From Burkholderiales bacterium (GTDB taxonomy: Bacteria; Pseudomonadota; Gammaproteobacteria; Burkholderiales; SG8-41): 44,114 nucleotides of DNA. The notes under the pieces are model-generated. The model saw only the letters and a list, made by a program, of their open reading frames with translations, was not told where the DNA came from and did no database searches. Within the stretch, counting starts at the first letter, position 1; every line of letters starts with the position of its first letter. Positions 1 to 9,069 of this stretch are shown here, piece after piece. The stretch is taken from assembly GCA_019744975.1 (NCBI GenBank), contig JAIETP010000008.1, forward strand, positions 137,144 through 181,257. Direction: 5' to 3'. The position numbers were made by a program, and so were the translations under genes.

Positions 1-803
1 GCCTGAGTGGACGAGCAACGGACCGTTTCATTGCCCTCAACTGCGCGGCATTGCCCAAAGACCTGGCTGAAAGCATCCTGTTTGGCCACAAACGCGGTGC
101 CTTCTCGGGTGCAGTTAACGACCAACTCGGAAAATTTGAGCTAGCGGATGGCGGCACCTTGTTTCTGGACGAGTTGGGCGAGTTGCCGCAGGAGTCGCAA
201 GCAAAACTCCTCCGGGTAATTGAGGATGGCATTGTCGAGCCGATTGGTGTCAAGAAGGGGCGTCGGGTCAACGTGCGTATTGTCGCGGCAACCAATGTGG
301 ACCTGCGCAAGGCTGTGAAGCAGAAAAAGTTCAGGGACGATCTCTATTTCCGGTTGAATGTCGGTCAGGTTATTTTGCCGCCGCTTAGAGCGCGGGTGAG
401 TGATATACCAAAACTGGCACTGTCGATTCTCGGTCGGTTGAACGAAACCATCCGACAGCCCAAGCGTCTTTCGATCAGTGCGCTGAAAGCATTGGAGCGG
501 CACCCATGGCCCGGCAACGTGCGTGAGTTGGGCAATGTCATCGAGCGGGCGGTTTTGCTCACCAAACGGGAATCCATCGAAGAGAGCGATCTCGACTTTG
601 CGAGGGACGGTGACGACACGTCCGGAGAGTTTCCGGTCCCTGATTTTGCGGATGGTTTTTCCATGGAAAGCTATCTCGCCGGAACTCGAAAGCAACTCGT
701 CGCGCGTGCACTTGAGCTGTCCGACGGAAACAAGAGTCGGGCCGCCCGCCTGCTGGGCGTTACGCCGCAGGCTATTCATAAGTTCCTGGGCAAGCCGGGT
801 TGA
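1..803 (+). CDS. sigma-54-dependent transcriptional activator (bEBP), 3' part only
   Basis: The gene enters from the left edge; its reading frame is open from base 3. The visible part is the second half of an AAA+ sigma-54 activator domain followed by a DNA-binding domain. The sigma-54 contact loop reads GAFSGA (usual GAFTGA). Walker B follows as GGTLFLDELGEL, then DDLYFRLN in the arginine-finger region and the WPGNVREL motif. The C-terminus is a Fis-type helix-turn-helix (GNKSRAARLLGVTPQAIHKF). Walker A and any N-terminal sensor domain lie outside the window, so the signal is unknown. A palindrome and a sigma-54 promoter lie just behind the stop codon. I infer that the protein activates the nuclease/restriction operon downstream. 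The family assignment is secure; the target is inference. Confidence 0.93.
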   Translation, partial: LSGRATDRFIALNCAALPKDLAESILFGHKRGAFSGAVNDQLGKFELADGGTLFLDELGELPQESQAKLLRVIEDGIVEPIGVKKGRRVNVRIVAATNVDLRKAVKQKKFRDDLYFRLNVGQVILPPLRARVSDIPKLALSILGRLNETIRQPKRLSISALKALERHPWPGNVRELGNVIERAVLLTKRESIEESDLDFARDGDDTSGEFPVPDFADGFSMESYLAGTRKQLVARALELSDGNKSRAARLLGVTPQAIHKFLGKPG

Positions 804-814
804 TCTTCAACTGA

Positions 815-834
815 TGTTGAGTAGGGACTCAACA
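815..834. promoter_or_regulatory. perfect palindrome, candidate upstream activating sequence (UAS)
   Basis: TGTTGAGT-AGGG-ACTCAACA has two perfect 8-bp arms with a 4-bp spacer. A further half-site, TTCAAC at 806-811, pairs with GTTGA at 816-820, giving three related half-sites in a row. The -24 element lies about 82 bp downstream, a normal distance for an enhancer bound by a Fis-type bEBP. A transcription terminator is less likely because no T-run follows on either side. Confidence 0.65.
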
Positions 835-873
835 AAGGTTTAAATTCGCTGTGTGTGCGCGAAAAAGAATTTA

Positions 874-891
874 TATAAGTATTTGTTTTTA
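874..891 (-). promoter_or_regulatory. IHF-like AT-rich site; left copy of an 18-bp inverted repeat
   Basis: The minus strand reads TAAAAACAAATACTTATA. Its core at 876-888 (AAACAAATACTTA) matches the IHF consensus WATCAANNNNTTR with one mismatch and has an A-tract beside it. It sits between the palindrome and the -24 box, where IHF bends DNA in many sigma-54 promoters. The same 18 bases occur in the opposite orientation at 9157-9174, beyond the end of the operon. Confidence 0.5.
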
Positions 892-916
892 AACGACATT
901 TTATTTTTCGCTGAGC

Positions 917-932
917 TGGCATCCCTGTTGCT
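917..932 (+). promoter_or_regulatory. sigma-54 (-24/-12) promoter of the nuclease/restriction operon
   Basis: TGGCATCCCTGTTGCT matches the TGGCACG-N4-TTGCW consensus. The GG (918-919) and GC (930-931) dinucleotides are separated by exactly 10 bp. Transcription would start near 943, leaving a leader of about 27 bases before the ATG at 971. The upstream gene encodes a sigma-54 activator and a palindrome lies at UAS distance, so three independent signals agree. Not shown experimentally. Confidence 0.75.
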
Positions 933-970
933 AAGTAAGAGGCAGGCACTTAACTTACAGGAGCACAGTG

Positions 971-1264
971 ATGAATACGTTCCAGGTGGTTCGTGTGGTG
1001 GATGGTGATACGTTTGATGTCAGCCCGGGTTGGACATGGGGGGGTAGCAATGGCAACCGCGTTCGGCCAGCCGGTTATGACGCAGCAGAGATTAGCGCGG
1101 CCGGAGGGGCAACCGCTACGGCCAAGTTGTCTAGCCTTATCCTCGGGCGATCGGTTCAACTCGGTAATGCACATACGATCGATCGCGGGCGGTTGGTTTG
1201 CGAAGTCTTTTTTGATGGCAGGAATCTGGCTGAATATTTCAAGAGACGAACGCCTCATTACTGA
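971..1264 (+). CDS. small SNase-like (thermonuclease-fold) protein
   Basis: A 97-residue protein with a compact staphylococcal-nuclease fold. VVRVVDGDTFDV (6-17) is the typical opening strand pair. R32 and E40 in RPAGYDAAE keep the R-x7-E spacing of the catalytic Arg35/Glu43 of S. aureus nuclease, and R74 in IDRGR matches Arg87. There is no signal peptide, so it should stay in the cytoplasm, unlike classical secreted nucleases. The ATG at 971 is chosen because AGGAG (959-963) lies 7 bases before it; a GTG at 968 is too close. It is the first gene behind the sigma-54 promoter and ends 17 bases before hsdR. A DNA- or RNA-degrading accessory role in defence is inference. Confidence 0.75.
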   Translation: MNTFQVVRVVDGDTFDVSPGWTWGGSNGNRVRPAGYDAAEISAAGGATATAKLSSLILGRSVQLGNAHTIDRGRLVCEVFFDGRNLAEYFKRRTPHY

Positions 1265-1281
1265 GGCTGAAATGGCGACCG

Positions 1282-3531
1282 TTGGCGAATAACGCAAAAG
1301 AGACAGACGCGCGCATCCTGATCGACGACCAGCTTCGTCAGGTCGGCTGGGATCCTGCGGACAAGTCTCAGGTGGGAACCGAAATCTGGATATCTCATGA
1401 CTCGTTCAAGGCACAAGCGCCGTCCGGCGAGACCACTGTTTTGTCCACGGGTTCTGCTGGTGGAGCTGCCGACTATGTGTTGTATGACCAGCGTGGACGC
1501 CCGCTGGCAGTCATCGAAGCCAAAAAGCAGGCGATTCAGCCTTACGTTGCCAAGCATCAGGCGCTGCCTTATGCGAAAGGGCTCAATGCGCCGTTCATTT
1601 TTCTGACCAACGGCGAACTGATCTATTTCTGGGATTACCAGAACGACGACGCGCGTATCGTCAATTCATTCTATTCGCGCCGCGATCTGGAGCGCCTGGT
1701 GGAAATGCGGGCCAATCGCAAGGCCATGGCCACCATTCCGATTCCCGACACTTATCAGCGCCAGGGTGAAACCCGCTCGGTGCGACCGTATCAGCAGGAA
1801 GCCATGCAGGCGCTCGACCGGACTGTCGAGCTGGGCAAGCGGCGCTTCCTGATCGAACTGCCGACAGGCTGCGGCAAGACCGATCTGATTTGCCTCTATC
1901 TGAAGCGGCTGCTGCAGTCGGGGCACGCCGAGCGCATCCTCTTTCTGGTTGACCGCGATCAACTGGCCAAGCAGGCCATCGAGGCCATTCAGGATCTGCT
2001 GCCCGGTCATCCGAGCTACTGGCTCAAGTCTGGCATGGCACAGCAGCAGAAGCAGATCACGGTTTGTCTGTTGCAGACGATGCTCGGGCGCCATCAGGAA
2101 TTTAGTAGTGGTTATTTTGATGTGGTGGTGGCGGACGAATGTCATCGATCCATCTACGGCGCGTGGCAGACTTCACTAACCCATTTTGACGCGCTGCATA
2201 TTGGCTTGACGGCAACGCCGGCGATCTACATGGAGCGCAACACTTTCCAGTTCTACCACTGCAAAGACAATGCGCCGGACTTTTCCTACACCATCCAGGA
2301 AGCGTTTCGGGGCGAGTACCTCACACCCTACAAGTTTGCAACCGGGATTACCGAGGTCATCGCGGCCGGTGCCGACAAGGACGACGAGCACTACGACCCG
2401 GCCGAGTTCGAACGCAAGTGGACCAACGAGAAAACCAACCGCCTGATGATGCAGGAGTTTGACCGGTTGGCGTGGCGTGATTACAAGAGTCTCGCGTCTA
2501 AGCAGAAAATCGGTCCGGGCAAGGCGGTCGTGTTCGCCATAAGCAAACACCACGCGGCGCGCCTCGCGCAATACCTGAACGAACTGCATCCCGAACACAA
2601 AGGGCGCTACGCCGAGGTCATTACCAGCGATGTGCCCAATGCAGATGAACTGATCCGCAAGTTCAAGCAGGATGATTACCCGCAGGTGGCCGTCAGTGTC
2701 GGCATGCTCGATACGGGCTTCGACTGTCGCGAAATCCTGCACCTGGTGATGTGCCGCCGCATCCGCAGCCCGATTTTGTATCAGCAGATGCGGGGCCGGG
2801 GCACGCGCACCGCACCTCACATCGGCAAGGAAAAGTTTGTCATTTACGACTTTTTCCGCAATCACGAGTATTTCAACGATTCCGACACTGATGTGTTCTC
2901 GGGCGCCGGCGGCGGCTATCGCACTGGCGGCACCGGCCCGCGTCCGCCCACACCGCGCGAACTGATCGAACTTGGCCTGGAAGACGAGTGGCTGGAAGCG
3001 GTCAATTACATAGAAGTCGGCCCTTCGGGCGAACGCATCGACAAGCGCGACTACGTGACGGATTGGGAAACCCATGTCCGCACGCAGGCGACCGGCGATG
3101 ATTTGCTGGACAAGGTGCAGTCTGATAAGCCGCTGACCGAGGAGGAGGAAACCGAACTGGCGCAGCGCCTCAACCGGCCCGACCACTACTTCAATGAAGA
3201 AAACCTGCGCCGCGCCTATCGCAACCCGGGCGGTAATCTGATCGACTTCATCCGTGCAGCGCTGGGGAAGCTGCATATCAAGTCCAAGCCTGAACGCATC
3301 GAGGAGAACTTCCGTGCTTGGCTGGTGGCGCGCAACCTGACGCCAGAACAGGCGCAGTACCTAGCGCTGCTCAAAAACCGTGGCGTGGTCAAGGGCAAGG
3401 TCACCATCGATGACCTGTTTTCGCCGCCGCTTTCAATCCTCAATGCTGCAGGCGTGGGTATGGAATTGTTCGGTGAGCAGGGTTTGAAAGACATGGTCAA
3501 CGAACTTAACCAGTCAGTGCTCGCCGCCTGA
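1282..3531 (+). CDS. hsdR: type I restriction enzyme, R (endonuclease/translocase) subunit
   Basis: 749 residues, EcoEI-like size. The N-terminal PD-(D/E)xK nuclease core shows D64 in ADYVLYD and E79/K81 in VIEAKK. A superfamily 2 motor follows: Walker A PTGCGKT at 194-200, DECH at 285-288, TATP at 310-313, and helicase motif VI-like QQMRGRGTR further on. The last third resembles the EcoEI R C-terminal domain, which contacts the methylase. It cuts unmethylated DNA after ATP-driven translocation, in complex with HsdM and HsdS. The start is TTG; an ATG at 1272 lies in another frame and stops after seven codons. All nuclease and motor motifs are intact. It lies 24 bases ahead of hsdM in the same operon. 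Confidence 0.95.
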   Translation: MANNAKETDARILIDDQLRQVGWDPADKSQVGTEIWISHDSFKAQAPSGETTVLSTGSAGGAADYVLYDQRGRPLAVIEAKKQAIQPYVAKHQALPYAKGLNAPFIFLTNGELIYFWDYQNDDARIVNSFYSRRDLERLVEMRANRKAMATIPIPDTYQRQGETRSVRPYQQEAMQALDRTVELGKRRFLIELPTGCGKTDLICLYLKRLLQSGHAERILFLVDRDQLAKQAIEAIQDLLPGHPSYWLKSGMAQQQKQITVCLLQTMLGRHQEFSSGYFDVVVADECHRSIYGAWQTSLTHFDALHIGLTATPAIYMERNTFQFYHCKDNAPDFSYTIQEAFRGEYLTPYKFATGITEVIAAGADKDDEHYDPAEFERKWTNEKTNRLMMQEFDRLAWRDYKSLASKQKIGPGKAVVFAISKHHAARLAQYLNELHPEHKGRYAEVITSDVPNADELIRKFKQDDYPQVAVSVGMLDTGFDCREILHLVMCRRIRSPILYQQMRGRGTRTAPHIGKEKFVIYDFFRNHEYFNDSDTDVFSGAGGGYRTGGTGPRPPTPRELIELGLEDEWLEAVNYIEVGPSGERIDKRDYVTDWETHVRTQATGDDLLDKVQSDKPLTEEEETELAQRLNRPDHYFNEENLRRAYRNPGGNLIDFIRAALGKLHIKSKPERIEENFRAWLVARNLTPEQAQYLALLKNRGVVKGKVTIDDLFSPPLSILNAAGVGMELFGEQGLKDMVNELNQSVLAA

Positions 3532-3555
3532 CTTTAGTGAAACAGGAAAATTGTT

Positions 3556-5208
3556 TTGAATCAACAGCTTAGAAATAAACTCAATAAAATCACCAATGTG
3601 CTCTGGGCAGGTGGGGTCACCAATCCTGTCACTTACATTGAGCAGATTTCCTATCTGATTTTTCTCAAGTTGCTGGATGAGGAAGAAAACGACCGCGAAC
3701 TGCGGTCGCGGTTGGAGTCAGGAAAAAACGGCCACGGCAATGCAAAGCTGTTGTTTCCGGCGCAGGCTGAGCGCTATCGTTGGAGTAAGTGGCGCTTCAA
3801 GAGCGGCAACGATCTGCGCGACTTCATCCGCGATGAAGTGTTTCCGTACATGGCCTCGCTCGCCAAGGACGAGCCGGAAGTCGCGGAATACTTCCGTGAT
3901 GCTGTTCTGGAGATCGTCGATCCCAACGTGCTCAAGGAGGTTATCGACGAAATCGACGGTTTCGAATTCCGCAAACTCGGCCCCGACGTCAAAGGCGATA
4001 TTTTCGAATACCTGCTGACGCACCTGGGCTCCAGCGCGCTCAATGGTCAGTTCCGTACGCCGCGCCAGATTCGTGCCTTCATGGTCGAGATGACCGATCC
4101 CGACGTCGGCGACTCAATGTTTGACCCGGCCTGCGGCACGGCGGGTTTCCTGATCGACGCGGTAGACTACCTGCTCGCCAAGTATTCCGACCACGTCAGT
4201 GAATACCCGATCTACGGTGAGGACTGGCTGGAGAAAAAAGGTAAATCGCTGGAAGAGCTGCGGAAGGAAATGCCGCGCCTGCAGACCTACCGCAAGGGCG
4301 CCGGTGAGAAAATTCCCGACTGGAGTCTGCTGGAGGCTTCGGTGTTTGGCACCGATGTATCGCGCCAGATGATCCGTATCAGCATGATGAACCTGGTGTT
4401 GCACGGCATTCGTCACGCCCAGCTCAAACGTGCCAATTCACTGTCCGACATGGGCGGCTTGTCCGAGGATGATCTGCGCCGGCGCTACAAGGTCATCCTG
4501 GCCAATCCGCCGTTTGCCGGGCAGCTACCCAAAGACTCCATTCGTGCTGACCTGCCGACCAACAGCAAGAAAAGCGAGTTGCTGTTTTTGTCATTGATGA
4601 TGCAGCATCTTGCACCCGGTGGGCGCTGTGCGGTGGTAGTGCCGGAAGGACTCCTGTTTGGCTCCACTGGAGCGCACGTGGAATTGCGCAAGAAGCTGGT
4701 TACCGAATTTGATCTGCTCGCGGTTGTCAGCCTGCCTGCCGGCGTGTTCAAGCCCTACGCTGGCGTGAAGACCGCCGTGCTGGTGTTCCGCAGGCCGGCG
4801 ACCGAATCGGCGAAGCGGTTGGACAAAGTCTGGTTCTACGAGGTGCGAAACGACGGCTATGACCCGGACAAGATTACTGGCGGCGGGCGCGTCGAAACCC
4901 CGGAGAAGAACGATATTCCTGGGCTGCTCGCGCAGTGGAAGGCGTGGAAGGCGAGCGGTTTTTCCGCGCCGCCGGGACTGGAGGCCAACGCGCTGCAGCC
5001 GCATGGAAGTGCCGCGCCGACCTGCTGGTGGACCACGCGCGAAAGACTTGGTGAGGCGGATTACAACCTTGGCGCTGGGCAGTGGAAGCCGCGCGTAGCT
5101 GAAAATGCCAGCAACGAAGACCCAAGTAAGCTCGTGGAGGACGTGCTGAAGGACTACCGGTCGGTAGTGGCAGGACTAGAAAAACTACATTCCGAGTTTG
5201 CCAAATGA
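3556..5208 (+). CDS. hsdM: type I restriction-modification system, M (adenine methyltransferase) subunit
   Basis: 550 residues. The N-terminal HsdM helical domain (about 5-150) begins with NKLNKITNVLW. The N6-adenine methyltransferase domain follows, with SAM-binding motif I FDPACGTAGF (189-198) and catalytic motif IV NPPF (317-320). It transfers methyl groups to adenine in the bipartite site read by HsdS and is also needed for restriction. The start is TTG at 3556, 8 bases behind AGGA (3544-3547). Its stop codon overlaps the hsdS start (ATGA), which suggests translational coupling and fixed stoichiometry. No disrupted motif is visible, so the methylase should be active whenever the operon is expressed. 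Confidence 0.97.
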   Translation: MNQQLRNKLNKITNVLWAGGVTNPVTYIEQISYLIFLKLLDEEENDRELRSRLESGKNGHGNAKLLFPAQAERYRWSKWRFKSGNDLRDFIRDEVFPYMASLAKDEPEVAEYFRDAVLEIVDPNVLKEVIDEIDGFEFRKLGPDVKGDIFEYLLTHLGSSALNGQFRTPRQIRAFMVEMTDPDVGDSMFDPACGTAGFLIDAVDYLLAKYSDHVSEYPIYGEDWLEKKGKSLEELRKEMPRLQTYRKGAGEKIPDWSLLEASVFGTDVSRQMIRISMMNLVLHGIRHAQLKRANSLSDMGGLSEDDLRRRYKVILANPPFAGQLPKDSIRADLPTNSKKSELLFLSLMMQHLAPGGRCAVVVPEGLLFGSTGAHVELRKKLVTEFDLLAVVSLPAGVFKPYAGVKTAVLVFRRPATESAKRLDKVWFYEVRNDGYDPDKITGGGRVETPEKNDIPGLLAQWKAWKASGFSAPPGLEANALQPHGSAAPTCWWTTRERLGEADYNLGAGQWKPRVAENASNEDPSKLVEDVLKDYRSVVAGLEKLHSEFAK

Positions 5209-6479
5209 TGTGGCCGGAGGTTTCGATTGCTAATTTTTGCCAAACCGGTAGCGGAGGCACACCAAGTCGTAGCAATACGAATTATTACGGGGGCACGATT
5301 CCTTGGATTAAATCAGGTGAGTTACGTGATGAACCTCTTCGTGCAACGGAGGAATTCATCACTGAACAGGCGTTGAAAGATAGCAGTGCAAAGATTGTTC
5401 CGGCTGGTGCAATCTTAATTGCCATGTATGGCGCGACGGTTGGACGAACTGCATTGCTTGAGTTTGAGGCAACAACGAACCAAGCAGTTTGCTTTGTAAT
5501 ACCTGACAGTCGAATTGCCATAGGGCGATATGTTTGGTATGCGATGCGTGCCAATTATGAAAGTTTGCTATCTAAGCGTGTTGGTGGTGCGCAGCCGAAC
5601 ATTAGTCAGCAGATCATTAAAAACGTAAGGCTTCCAATCCCTTCGCTCTCTGAGCAATCCCGTATTGTCGAGCTTCTCGACGAAGCGGATCGTCTGCGCA
5701 AGCTGAGTTGCGAACTAGACGACAAGGTCTCCCGAATCCTGCCTGCGCTATTTCTCAAAATGTTTGGCGACCCGGCGACGAATCCGATGGGGTGGGCGCC
5801 GAAGCGGCTTGGGGAACTCGCTGACGACAAGCCCGAATACGGAGCAAATGCTAGTGCTTGTGCTGCATCTGAGGGAAAGCCCCGCTATGTCCGTATCACC
5901 GATATCCGCGAGAACGGGGTCTTATCTGACAAGGGTGTAGTTTCGCTAGATTTGGAAGACTATGGCCGCTATATGCTTGCTGAGGGTGATGTTTTGTTTG
6001 CTCGTAGTGGTAACACCGTTGGCAAGACATATATCTATCGTCTTGATGACGGAGCATGCGCCTACGCGGGCTATCTGATCCGTTTTCGATTCCGGTTAGG
6101 TGGCACCGATCCTTGGTTCATTTTTGGTCTCACACGCACCGCGTATTATCGTGGATGGGTTGAGTCGCATAAGCGGGTAGCTGGGCAGCCGAATATAAAC
6201 GGTCAGGAGTATGCAGGCCTACTGGTCCCTGAACCACCCCTCGCTCTTCAACAGCGTTTTGGGGCGTTAGCTCGATCAATGGAGTCCATCGTTTCGCAAG
6301 CCAGTCGTGCCAATGAAAATCTGGAAGCATTATTCGATACGTTGCTTCAGCGTGCTTTCTCAGGTCAACTCACCGCCAAATGGCGCGAAGCGCACATGAA
6401 GGAACTGCTGACCGAGATGGAAGATCAAGCGCGAGTTTTGAACATTCCATTGCCGAAAGAGCTGGAGGCGACGGCATGA
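5205..6479 (+). CDS. hsdS: type I restriction-modification system, S (specificity) subunit
   Basis: 424 residues with the two-target-recognition-domain layout: TRD1 about 1-150, a coiled-coil conserved region about 150-190 (EQSRIVELLDEADRLRKL), TRD2 about 190-355, and a distal conserved helix about 355-400 ending LLQRAFSGQL. Each TRD should read one half of a bipartite DNA site; the site cannot be predicted from sequence alone. The beginning is more AT-rich than hsdM, as usual for exchanged TRDs. Two ATGs occur in a row (5205, 5208); the first overlaps the hsdM stop. The last four bases overlap the next gene's ATG. There is one hsdS only, with no inverted partial copies, so no sign of phase-variable shuffling. 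Confidence 0.95.
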   Translation: MMWPEVSIANFCQTGSGGTPSRSNTNYYGGTIPWIKSGELRDEPLRATEEFITEQALKDSSAKIVPAGAILIAMYGATVGRTALLEFEATTNQAVCFVIPDSRIAIGRYVWYAMRANYESLLSKRVGGAQPNISQQIIKNVRLPIPSLSEQSRIVELLDEADRLRKLSCELDDKVSRILPALFLKMFGDPATNPMGWAPKRLGELADDKPEYGANASACAASEGKPRYVRITDIRENGVLSDKGVVSLDLEDYGRYMLAEGDVLFARSGNTVGKTYIYRLDDGACAYAGYLIRFRFRLGGTDPWFIFGLTRTAYYRGWVESHKRVAGQPNINGQEYAGLLVPEPPLALQQRFGALARSMESIVSQASRANENLEALFDTLLQRAFSGQLTAKWREAHMKELLTEMEDQARVLNIPLPKELEATA

Positions 6480-8170
6480 CTCGCCGCCTCGCAGCGCTGC
6501 GTGTGGGCAATTTCAAGGCCTTTGCCGAAACCCAGCGCATTCCCCTCAAGCCCATTACGCTGATCTTCGGCCCGAACAGCGCGGGCAAGTCCAGCTTTAT
6601 CCACAGCTTGGCGCTCGCGCATGAGGCGCATCGGAAAGGTCTGCTCGACGTTTTCCGTACGGAACTAGGCGGCACGTCCATTGATCTCGGTGGGTTCCGG
6701 CAGTACGTGCACAAAACCGATCGCGGTAACCGGGTGGAGTGGGCTGCCGAACTGGATGTGGCACAAATGCCGCCTGCACTTGCTGGCCGAATGGCCAACA
6801 CAAAGCGCGTGACCGTCTCCTTACTGTTTGGTCTTGAGGGTGAGCTGGATTTGGACGAACTGATGGGCGAAACCAGCGTTTATTCCGACAAGCTTGACAA
6901 AGAGTCTGATTCGAAAGTCGTAGTGATGTATTACGAGCTACTGGCCGACGGCCAAAGCCTGGCAAAGATGAGCCGGCGGCGTGACGGTACCTTGCGACTG
7001 GACAGTCTGGATCGGGATCATCCTGTGTTCCGACAAGTTATTGACGCCATCATCGAAGTGTCCACGGCGCAAAATCCGGATTCCGCCAGAGCCATCTTGG
7101 TTGAGGCGGTAGATGCTTTGGTTCCTGAGATTTCGGCGCAAGTCATAAATTTCTTACCCAAGATAAATCTCCCTGAGCGTGATGGAGGTTTAATAGCCGA
7201 TGCGATGCTTCAGCCAATAAGCCGCGACAATCGGGCAGACGATCTGGCGAATGCTGCACAGCTTTTTTTCCCAAGGGCGCTCAGTGACATTGTCAACGGT
7301 TTAAACGATCTGGTGCGCGAGGAGCTGGATACGTTGGTTTACCTCGGACCGCTACGTTCGTTTCCGCCGCGTCATATGGCGTTCGCTGAACACGATGACA
7401 AAAACTGGAAGGCTGGCGGTGGTTATGCTTGGGATGTGGTACGTGCTGATAAGGCCGTGCGTGATGCAGTGAACACGTGGCTGGGTTCACCCATCATGAA
7501 AACGCCTTATCGGCTGGCGGTCAGAACCTTGTTTGCTCTGGATCAGATGGCATCGCCGCTAGCGACGGAACTGGACGAGCTTGCTGAACGCATGAATGTC
7601 ATGCCGAATCCTGACGCCGACATCGGCTATTCCGCCGAAATTGATAATTCAGACAAGGAGGCGCGGCAGATACTTCAGGCGATGCGCAAGTCGAATGTCG
7701 ATCGTGTGACTGAGTTGGCATTGGTTGACGAGCGGACCAAAACGGTGGTGTCGCACCGTGATGTGGGTATTGGCATATCGCAGGTGCTACCGGTTCTCGT
7801 GACCGCTTTCGCCTCGCGTAACCGTATTGTGGCTATGGAGCAGCCGGAGATTCATCTTCATCCCGCGTTGCAGGCCGAGTTAGCAGATGTGTTTCTGGAG
7901 TCAGCGCTGGGCGAGCGCCAGAATACTTTTGTGCTGGAAACGCATAGCGAACATTTGGTACTTCGGCTTCTGCGGCGCATCCGGGAAACTGCTGATGGTG
8001 AACTGCCTGAAGGTATGCAATCCATCCGGCCAGAAGATATTTGTATTGTCTATGTGCAGCCAGGCCAAAAGGGTTCGTCTGTAGTCGAAATTCCGGTCAC
8101 TTCGGACGGCGATTTCTCTGGTTCTTGGCCGGAGGGGTTTTTTGCAGAACGGGCAAAAGAGCTTTTCTAA
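6476..8170 (+). CDS. AAA/ABC-type ATPase with DUF3696-like C-terminus
   Basis: 564 residues of the SMC/ABC-like ATPase group found in many defence loci. Walker A is GPNSAGKSS (32-40). After a long insert comes the signature-like GIGISQVLPVL, then Walker B RIVAMEQPEIHLHP with E455/E458, and an H-loop region ETHSEHL (488-494). The tail (WPEGFF near the end) resembles the DUF3696 module. The ATG overlaps the hsdS stop by four bases and the stop overlaps the next start, so it is co-translated with both neighbours. Such ATPases often act as sensors or regulators of a partner effector; here the next gene is the natural partner. No TOPRIM domain is seen, so it is not a full OLD nuclease. The exact role is unknown. 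Confidence 0.85.
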   Translation: MTRRLAALRVGNFKAFAETQRIPLKPITLIFGPNSAGKSSFIHSLALAHEAHRKGLLDVFRTELGGTSIDLGGFRQYVHKTDRGNRVEWAAELDVAQMPPALAGRMANTKRVTVSLLFGLEGELDLDELMGETSVYSDKLDKESDSKVVVMYYELLADGQSLAKMSRRRDGTLRLDSLDRDHPVFRQVIDAIIEVSTAQNPDSARAILVEAVDALVPEISAQVINFLPKINLPERDGGLIADAMLQPISRDNRADDLANAAQLFFPRALSDIVNGLNDLVREELDTLVYLGPLRSFPPRHMAFAEHDDKNWKAGGGYAWDVVRADKAVRDAVNTWLGSPIMKTPYRLAVRTLFALDQMASPLATELDELAERMNVMPNPDADIGYSAEIDNSDKEARQILQAMRKSNVDRVTELALVDERTKTVVSHRDVGIGISQVLPVLVTAFASRNRIVAMEQPEIHLHPALQAELADVFLESALGERQNTFVLETHSEHLVLRLLRRIRETADGELPEGMQSIRPEDICIVYVQPGQKGSSVVEIPVTSDGDFSGSWPEGFFAERAKELF

Positions 8171-9069
8171 TGCTCAAGGAATTCGCCGTAGAGCCTGCGC
8201 TGCTGTCGACTTGGGAGCAGTTTCGCTATCTCATTGAAAAATTTGGGGTTTCAGAGGGGCGATTGATTTCTCGCTATCCCAAGCGTTGGAAGCAGATGGT
8301 CTATGACGCATTGGGAGGCTGTTCCGAGATGGATCGAAAGCGGATTGAGGTTCGGCTCCAGAATCTTGATGAAAAAATGATGGCTCGTTCGCATGAGTGG
8401 GATGCTGCGCGGGACTGGTTGACGAATGCCGAAAAGGAGCATGGGACCAGACCATTCGATGGAATTGTGGCTGCGCAAAATCCTCGCGCGCATCCGGCAG
8501 TGATACCGGTTGCTGAGCTTGATGATGGCGTTGGTATATGGCGAGTAAGCCGTGAGGTTGTGGTGCCGCGTGAGGCTAGAGCGATTGCCGGTGCCATGAG
8601 ACCGCTTCTGCAGCTCTCGCGAAGAATCGTTTTTGTGGATCCGCATTTCAGTCCGTATAACCCGCGCGCTAGAGCCGCACTCGCGGCTTGTATGGCGCAA
8701 ATCTGTTCACGTGCCAACCAGGTTCCAATTGAATCGATTGAGTTTCATACAAGCTTTCGTCCGGGTATTGCCCGATTTGCAGAAGAATGCCTTTCCCGTT
8801 TACCTAATCAAGTTCCGCGAGACCGTGTGCTTCGCATTGTTTGCCTTTCAGCGCGAGCGGGCGGAGATGGACTTCATAATCGCTACGTGTTGACGGAACG
8901 CGGTGGGGTGAGTTTGAGGTGGGGGCTCGATGAAGGTGCCCAAGGTGAGACTGATGACCTGAGCCTTCTGGACCGCGATGTATATTCGACCCGATGGGGA
9001 CAGTATTGTGGGCCAAACCCAGCTTTCGATCTCGTTACCGAAACGATAGTGATTGGAACGGCGAGATAA
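8170..9069 (+). CDS. protein of unknown function with PLD-like C-terminal motif, putative effector
   Basis: 299 residues. I do not recognise a close family. The N-terminal half (about 1-140) is largely helical-looking with no clear motif. The second half begins with IVFVDPHF (D157-F160) and contains LHNRYVLTERGGVSLRWGL, with H236 and R238. This H-x-R...GG...GLD pattern resembles the PLD-like domain seen at the C-terminus of MIT-domain proteins, but I rate this match low. The ATG overlaps the ATPase stop (TAATG), so the two are coupled and probably work as a pair. It is the last gene of the unit. Nuclease, lipase or pure binding roles are all possible. Confidence 0.7.
   Translation: MLKEFAVEPALLSTWEQFRYLIEKFGVSEGRLISRYPKRWKQMVYDALGGCSEMDRKRIEVRLQNLDEKMMARSHEWDAARDWLTNAEKEHGTRPFDGIVAAQNPRAHPAVIPVAELDDGVGIWRVSREVVVPREARAIAGAMRPLLQLSRRIVFVDPHFSPYNPRARAALAACMAQICSRANQVPIESIEFHTSFRPGIARFAEECLSRLPNQVPRDRVLRIVCLSARAGGDGLHNRYVLTERGGVSLRWGLDEGAQGETDDLSLLDRDVYSTRWGQYCGPNPAFDLVTETIVIGTAR

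Follow-up and report, generated by a model that had tools for sequence, protein, structure and literature searches.

Near one end of a 44,114-nucleotide stretch of DNA from a Burkholderiales bacterium (assembly GCA_019744975.1, contig JAIETP010000008.1, positions 137,144 to 181,257, forward strand; hereafter the window), the gene of a sigma-54 activator is followed on the same strand by a type I restriction–modification (R-M) operon. The segment between them runs from the activator stop codon (801-803) to the first operon ATG (971, preceded by AGGAG at 959-963) and, judged by its sequence, very probably controls a defence operon that depends on sigma-54 and is gated by a ligand. A preliminary description of this DNA had read the segment as a palindrome, an IHF-like site and a -24/-12 promoter driving the R-M genes; that reading is right in substance, has one detail out of register, and is strengthened by the CARF sensor domain of the activator. 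The control-region features are:

3..803, + strand: C-terminal 266 codons of the activator gene, with an AAA+ sigma-54 domain and a Fis-type helix-turn-helix (HTH)
806..821: dyad 1, TTCAACTGATGTTGAG, proposed upstream activating sequence, 11/12 to TTYAAC-N4-GTTRAA
815..834: perfect 8-4-8 palindrome TGTTGAGT-AGGG-ACTCAACA, formed by the facing halves of the two dyads
828..843: dyad 2, CTCAACAAAGGTTTAA, proposed upstream activating sequence, 10/12, its centre 22 bp from that of dyad 1
876..888, - strand: IHF-like site, 8/9 to the IHF consensus WATCAANNNNTTR, at one of two positions that recur in homologous loci
917..932, + strand: putative sigma-54 -24/-12 site TGGCATCCCTGTTGCT, 10 bp from GG to GC, at a conserved position

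The -24/-12 site agrees with the sigma-54 consensus TGGCAYGNNNNTTGCW at 11 of 12 positions, has the exact 10-bp GG-GC spacing first reported for it and sits, as also reported, right behind the sigma-54 activator gene; transcription would start near 942-943. By itself the site is modest evidence, given that nine places on the two strands of the window reach at least 10/12 (917-932 being the sole 11) and that a score of 11 was attained in 45, and a score of 10 in 332, of 20,000 dinucleotide shuffles of the 170-bp region. The window alone is thus not overwhelming against the explanation that the box is a chance match and that the operon is constitutive, served by a sigma-70 promoter or by transcription running on from the activator gene. 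Read-through is possible, as the sole terminator-like match between activator and operon is a weak 5-pair stem (785-799) in the last activator codons. Against this explanation, the only sigma-70-like match in 700-4000 lies at 3561-3590, inside hsdM near its start, with a shuffle mean of 1.6, and the box is kept in both position and sequence at homologous loci; we consider this explanation very unlikely.

The homologous loci, 59 in all, were collected by searching species-representative genomes for two short CARF peptide patterns, and their record titles name Betaproteobacteria, Gammaproteobacteria, Deltaproteobacteria, Desulfobacterales, Oligoflexia, Nitrospirae, Planctomycetota, Verrucomicrobia, Cloacimonadota, Poribacteria, Hydrogenedens, Abyssobacteria and Caldisericales, among others. 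A box could be sought in 45 of them (five of the other 14 ran off the contig, seven had broken or partial activator frames and two lacked an activator match), and was taken to be a GG-N10-GC site scoring 10/12 or better in the interval from 20 bp before the activator stop to 150 bp behind it. Conservation of GG/GC, set beforehand as a test on which the promoter claim could fall, was found: a box is present in 34 of the 45 loci, compared with 3 of 517 regions behind other open reading frames of the same loci and about 1% of 9,000 shuffles. HsdR is encoded in 27 of the 34 loci that have at least 3 kb downstream, and the box is found in 23 of these 27 as compared with 2 of the 7 without HsdR; the same pairing of activator and promoter beside hsdR thus recurs in other genomes, as the preliminary description had asked. 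Where at least 8.5 kb is available downstream, R, M and S are all present in 20 of 26 loci, the ATPase in 12 and the orphan gene in 5.

The second layer of evidence lies upstream of the box. The palindrome at 815-834, which had been proposed as the activator site, is indeed a perfect 8-4-8 repeat, though such repeats are not rare (the window holds five) and it is not the unit that recurs: it consists of the right half of dyad 1 and the left half of dyad 2, and what recurs is a pair of TTYAAC-N4-GTTRAA dyads. These were searched, with a gap of 3 to 5 permitted, in 38 upstream regions picked for a box of at least 9/12, so that the dyad and IHF frequencies given here are conditional on the box; the loci of genome G134 and of Rhodoferax, which differ in layout, were excluded. 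At least one dyad is present in 34 of the 38 upstreams and at least two in 30, while two dyads occurred in 37 of 3,800 shuffles. The two are 20.5-22 bp apart in 29 of the 30 pairs and exactly 21 bp apart in 20. In those 29 loci the dyads are centred at -105 and -84 relative to the box, with standard deviations (SD) of 2.6 and 2.8, as compared with SD 13.7-13.8 when measured from the activator stop. The 38 upstreams fall into 25 clusters at 55% identity, and twin dyads are present in 16 of these.

Since the dyads are fixed to the promoter and not to the activator stop, they behave as a protein site rather than as a gene-tied terminator. This bears on the alternative in which 815-834 would serve the activator gene as a hairpin or terminator, for which speak its 8-bp RNA stem and its position 12 bases behind the stop codon. 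The predicted fold is unexceptional (z -1.45), no terminator is called there (the nearest call being the 785-799 stem), and a search of 600-1300 against Rfam gave zero matches, leading us to reject a terminator or RNA element at this position. Moreover, the recurring unit keeps a constant distance from the promoter box, and the activator frame contains the centre of dyad 1 in 10 of 29 loci and that of dyad 2 in 2 of 29, so that the hairpin reading is very unlikely. The likely activator site, on sequence grounds, is therefore the pair of dyads at 806-821 and 828-843 rather than 815-834. Autoregulation of the activator through such dyads was considered and rejected: none of 45 loci has a dyad of at least 11/12 within 200 bp before its activator gene, and ahead of the activator in the window none reaches 10/12 over 250 bp.

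Between dyads and box, the stretch 874-891 had been called IHF-like, and it does contain the minus-strand 8/9 match at 876-888. Matches of at least 8/9 are found in 22 of the 38 upstreams, compared with 10.6% of shuffles, and many lie at -30 on the plus strand or at about -42 on the minus strand.

As for the sigma factor, rpoN has one match in this genome and is present in 45 of the 47 genomes with homologous loci. Strict TGGCAYN5TTGCW sites number 21 in the genome as compared with 2 for a reversed-pattern control. A wider regulon of the activator was looked for and rejected, as only the site of this operon among the 21 is accompanied by twin dyads within 160 bp; near a second site there is one weak dyad match. 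Enhancer-dependent sigma-54 control of the R-M operon, the core of the earlier claim, is thus supported by the conserved box, by twin dyads fixed to it in 29 of 38 upstreams, by the IHF-like matches, by rpoN and by a full-length sigma-54 activator, and the sequence shows what is expected for the target of an enhancer-binding protein, namely a -24/-12 promoter with an upstream activator site beside the operon.

The full activator has 497 aa (L001:9454-10947, its start lying outside the window). Residues 1 to about 155 form a CARF domain, and the remainder matches PF00158 (Sigma54_activat, E 8e-64) and HTH_8 (E 1.5e-6), both above cut-off, as befits a bacterial enhancer-binding protein. The CARF assignment is based on profiles: PF06956 (RtcR) matches above cut-off, PADLOC CARF models match, and the RtcR and Cas_Csm6_CARF models find matches in 33 of 33 family members, with E values up to 0.01. 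The best PADLOC match is PDLC01995 (RtcR_PspF2, CARF_AAA_HTH; E 6.1e-132), aligning residues 1-494 to positions 1-476 of 481. Among the best 50 VIA-align and Foldseek matches of the full-length model there is no CARF entry, the AAA+ domain filling the list, and a single-sequence search for solved relatives of the CARF domain likewise gave no CARF match; a profile search found as the closest solved relative the Csm6 protein 6tug, which senses cyclic hexaadenylate (cA6), at E 2.5e-5 and with the SGTPQM motif in common. The activator is most likely an RtcR-type, ligand-gated enhancer-binding protein (CARF, AAA+, Fis-type HTH) that would control the operon.

Several observations weigh against the overall reading of the segment. 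The loci, being derived from peptide patterns, sample the window's own branch. The box is missing at the 10/12 threshold in 11 of the 45 testable loci, four of which have HsdR downstream (in one of the four, L030, the activator frame ends in N). Four of the 38 upstreams have no dyad, four have one, and one pair is spaced differently; in the window itself dyad 2 is weak, and the spacing is 22 rather than 21 bp. A match to rpoN went undetected in two of the 47 genomes. The sigma-54 contact loop reads GAFSGA in the window protein, with threonine (GAFTGA or GSFTGA) in 28 of 29 aligned homologs. Finally, the window protein scores 439 bits with PDLC01995, versus 660-662 for the G134 and Rhodoferax proteins, and is thus a side branch of that model.

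Comparison with known systems places the activator near several of them. RtcR of the rtcBA operon (E. coli, Salmonella) has the same CARF-AAA+-HTH build, and its target promoter likewise has an upstream activating sequence, an IHF site and a -24/-12 element (PMC9650030). The window protein differs from RtcR proper in scoring 318 bits where the NCBIfam equivalog NF038308 has a cut-off of 650, in preceding R-M genes instead of rtcBA, and in being co-oriented with its operon, whereas RtcR is opposite to rtcBA (PMC7790460). RtcR-like CARF-NtrC-HTH proteins unlinked to Rtc have been reported to be often associated with R-M, and were predicted to activate downstream genes through sigma-54 (Makarova et al. 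2014, PMC4012209); these proteins (PADLOC RtcR_PspF1 and RtcR_PspF2) share the architecture and the kind of neighbourhood seen here, and the main-text passages of that paper describe no promoter or operator and define no such cassette. In CoCoNuT superoperons, RtcR homologs stand at the head and type I R-M may be included (PMC11090510). The window resembles these in having an RtcR homolog 5' of same-direction defence genes, type I R-M among them, and differs in that its operon, made up of R-M with an SNase-like first gene, an ATPase and an orphan gene, has no McrBC-like gene among its family matches. A Rhodoferax locus resembles the CoCoNuT kind by annotation: on the Rhodoferax antarcticus plasmid NZ_CP019242.1 (13995-27489) a CARF activator stands ahead of annotated VWA, PP2C, kinase, AAA and DUF2357 genes, with an 11/12 -24/-12 box within the last activator codons. 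With the Csm6/Csx1 CARF ribonucleases of type III CRISPR the activator shares the CARF sensor and its SGTPQM motif; its effector part is predicted to act by sigma-54 activation instead of a HEPN nuclease, and the residues named for cleavage by Csm6 (PMC10702470) are replaced.

As for sigma-54 and R-M, an in silico list for Xylella has a sigma-54 candidate before a type I R-M system (PMC3224663), and in the main text of a 2025 survey of sigma-54 regulons (PMC12316311) the words restriction and CRISPR are both absent. In the literature covered, mostly open papers and their main texts, we found no experimentally studied sigma-54-controlled R-M operon and no description of the module of twin dyads, IHF site and -24/-12 box or of this cassette. 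The remark that there is no well-described sigma-54 case among R-M systems agrees with that literature as regards experiment and needs correction as regards prediction, since the association of such activators with R-M and a predicted sigma-54 control (PMC4012209), and type I R-M genes behind RtcR homologs (PMC11090510), had been published; in the sources as far as covered, the idea of CARF-activator control of R-M is already known, and the promoter architecture and cassette were not found described.

Because the activator is a CARF-domain protein, its trigger is probably an oligonucleotide-like ligand. In one alternative, type III CRISPR would supply a cyclic oligoadenylate as the ligand, the operon being a transcriptional arm of CRISPR. 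The kinship of the CARF profile to cA6-sensing Csm6, SGTPQM included, speaks for this, as do matches to the Cas10 model PF22335 at E 0.001 in 34 of the 47 genomes with the system (24 above cut-off, 18 below 1e-9), counts that come with no matched background and whose weak members may be other cyclase-like domains. On the other side, this genome, which is 99% complete, has no match to PF22335, nor to a SMODS cyclase or RtcB, each searched with one model; 29 of the 47 genomes, this one included, have no PF22335 match below 1e-9. The residues N10 and T11 with which Csm6 cleaves cA6 (PMC10702470) are F10 and H/Q11 here, and oligoadenylates do not activate E. coli RtcR (PMC9650030). On balance a CRISPR-made ligand is unlikely. 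In RtcR the CARF domain represses, and activation in E. coli needs RtcAB (PMC9650030), whereas RtcB has no match in this genome; Salmonella rtc expression responds to tRNA fragments (PMC7790460). Given the lack of a Cas10 match, the unresponsiveness of RtcR to oligoadenylates and the response of rtc to tRNA fragments, we think, with low confidence, that in this strain the ligand is more likely derived from RNA than a cyclic oligoadenylate of CRISPR origin.

The genes of the operon, all on the + strand, are:

971..1264: SNase-like protein of 97 aa, encoded first in the operon (Pfam SNase support weak in homologs and absent for the window copy by itself)
1282..3531: hsdR, type I restriction subunit (EcoEI/EcoAI type)
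3556..5208: hsdM, adenine methyltransferase subunit, separated from hsdR by 24 bp
5205..6479: hsdS, specificity subunit with two target-recognition regions
6476..8170: AAA_15/DUF3696-type ATPase, with an open frame from 6380 and a start, deduced from homologs, that overlaps the hsdS stop
8170..9069: orphan protein of 299 aa with a presumed start; homologous loci also have it behind the ATPase

Adjacent hsdR, hsdM and hsdS on one strand identify the system as type I R-M, and with starts inferred from homologs the frames overlap at hsdM-hsdS, hsdS-ATPase and ATPase-orphan. In 21 of 26 homologous loci the gap between hsdR and hsdM is at most 22 bp (93-422 bp in the remaining five), leaving scant room for a promoter outside hsdR in most loci. 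This matters for the alternative that restriction alone is controlled, hsdM being also constitutive from an internal promoter, so that the host would remain methylated with HsdR alone subject to induction. Such an arrangement would be physiologically safe, and the sole sigma-70-like match, 3561-3590, is at the hsdM start; it falls within the hsdM frame, however, and does not exceed chance expectation, and the short gap, 24 bp here, adds to the case against. We consider this alternative somewhat doubtful.

As for the less familiar products, Pfam SNase matches were obtained for 12 of 15 members of the first-gene family (best E 0.00094), and a profile search with it returned only two chains of one repeat-rich protein, with no stretch significant alone. 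The orphan protein has no Pfam or PADLOC match in the window copy; among seven members there were only single-member Pfam matches at E 0.017 or worse, and none of the seven had a PADLOC match. Its DPH and HxR positions are invariant across the seven aligned homologs, and its fold, by our assumption, is possibly a divergent PLD-like one.

Activator and cassette diverge together, with Mantel r of 0.65 for the SNase-like protein, 0.53 for HsdR, 0.46 for HsdM, 0.37 for HsdS and 0.70 for the ATPase; these values were reached by at most 11 of 2,000 permutations, and shared species history may contribute to them. A search of 369 genomes of the class for HsdR at E 1e-100 gave four matches (this genome, G122, G134 and a fragment in G174), the activator being present with the copies of this genome, G122 and G134 and the G174 fragment starting within the gene. 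In G134 (L007, reverse strand) the same hsdR-hsdM-hsdS-ATPase cassette lies behind a distant CARF activator scoring 662 bits to RtcR_PspF2, with the box directly behind the activator stop and no SNase-like frame between activator and hsdR; here the control module may have been exchanged. At the two loci that have a box and lack HsdR (L017:2008-10895 and L026:5603-14167), activators of the window's branch with good boxes precede what appear from sequence to be VWA-phosphatase-kinase genes and not R-M, so that different cargos appear to be placed under the module. At L046:5726-8468, ATPase and orphan genes lie opposite in direction behind a boxless activator.

On plasmids a single HsdR match exceeds 60% identity, a truncated copy next to which no activator is annotated: on the cyanobacterial plasmid CP150887.1 (L105:8001-10079) an hsdR of the window's lineage, 72% identical over 52% of the query, ends beside an IS630 transposase gene. 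Plasmid records gave one match at E 1e-4, in Rhodoferax; phage records gave none at E 0.001, and none of 41 pattern matches in viral contigs was confirmed as a relative.

The MFS gene behind the operon is present in 18 other genomes of the genus, and of 11 loci examined nine have aroC followed by the MFS region within about 80 bp; of the other two, L096 has the activator-upstream region between aroC and MFS and L090 has no upstream match. The aroC-MFS adjacency in relatives shows operon plus activator to be an insert some 10.5 kb long. A gene that we take to be PRiA4-like (L001:8780-9361) separates aroC from the activator and may predate the insertion, as L096 matches this region and is operon-free. 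The CARF domain is found in this genome only among 100 relatives searched (E 1e-5), and in three of 369 genomes of the class (E 1e-7).

We infer the following mechanism. The HTHs of activator dimers would bind the two dyads, two helical turns apart, and in the absence of ligand the CARF domain, by analogy with the autoinhibition of RtcR (PMC9650030), would keep the ATPase inactive. A nucleic-acid-derived ligand arising from infection or RNA damage would free the ATPase, which, with IHF bending the DNA at 876-888, would remodel the RNA polymerase-sigma-54 complex at 917-932, yielding a transcript that starts near 943 and covers all six genes, from the SNase-like one to the orphan.

Since the host needs the protection of the methyltransferase, R-M systems are commonly regarded as permanently on. 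In its strongest form, which we put forward only tentatively and think rather less likely than its contrary, our reading is that the whole type I system, methyltransferase included, stays silent until a CARF-read, oligonucleotide-type alarm of a new ligand class sets off a conditional attack on DNA. If so, the host genome would be unmodified at induction, since hsdR precedes hsdM in the same gene row, and R-M would be a possibly suicidal programme instead of a standing barrier. This raises the questions of what the ligand of an orphan CARF protein is in a genome without Cas10, SMODS cyclase and RtcB matches, and how self-DNA is spared. The 2014 prediction takes the form here of a concrete, testable promoter whose operator, IHF and -24/-12 sites are named, and a conserved sigma-54 switch ahead of hsdR-hsdM-hsdS, read by a CARF sensor, would make R-M systems of one group, across distant phyla, inducible by a signal of infection or damage.
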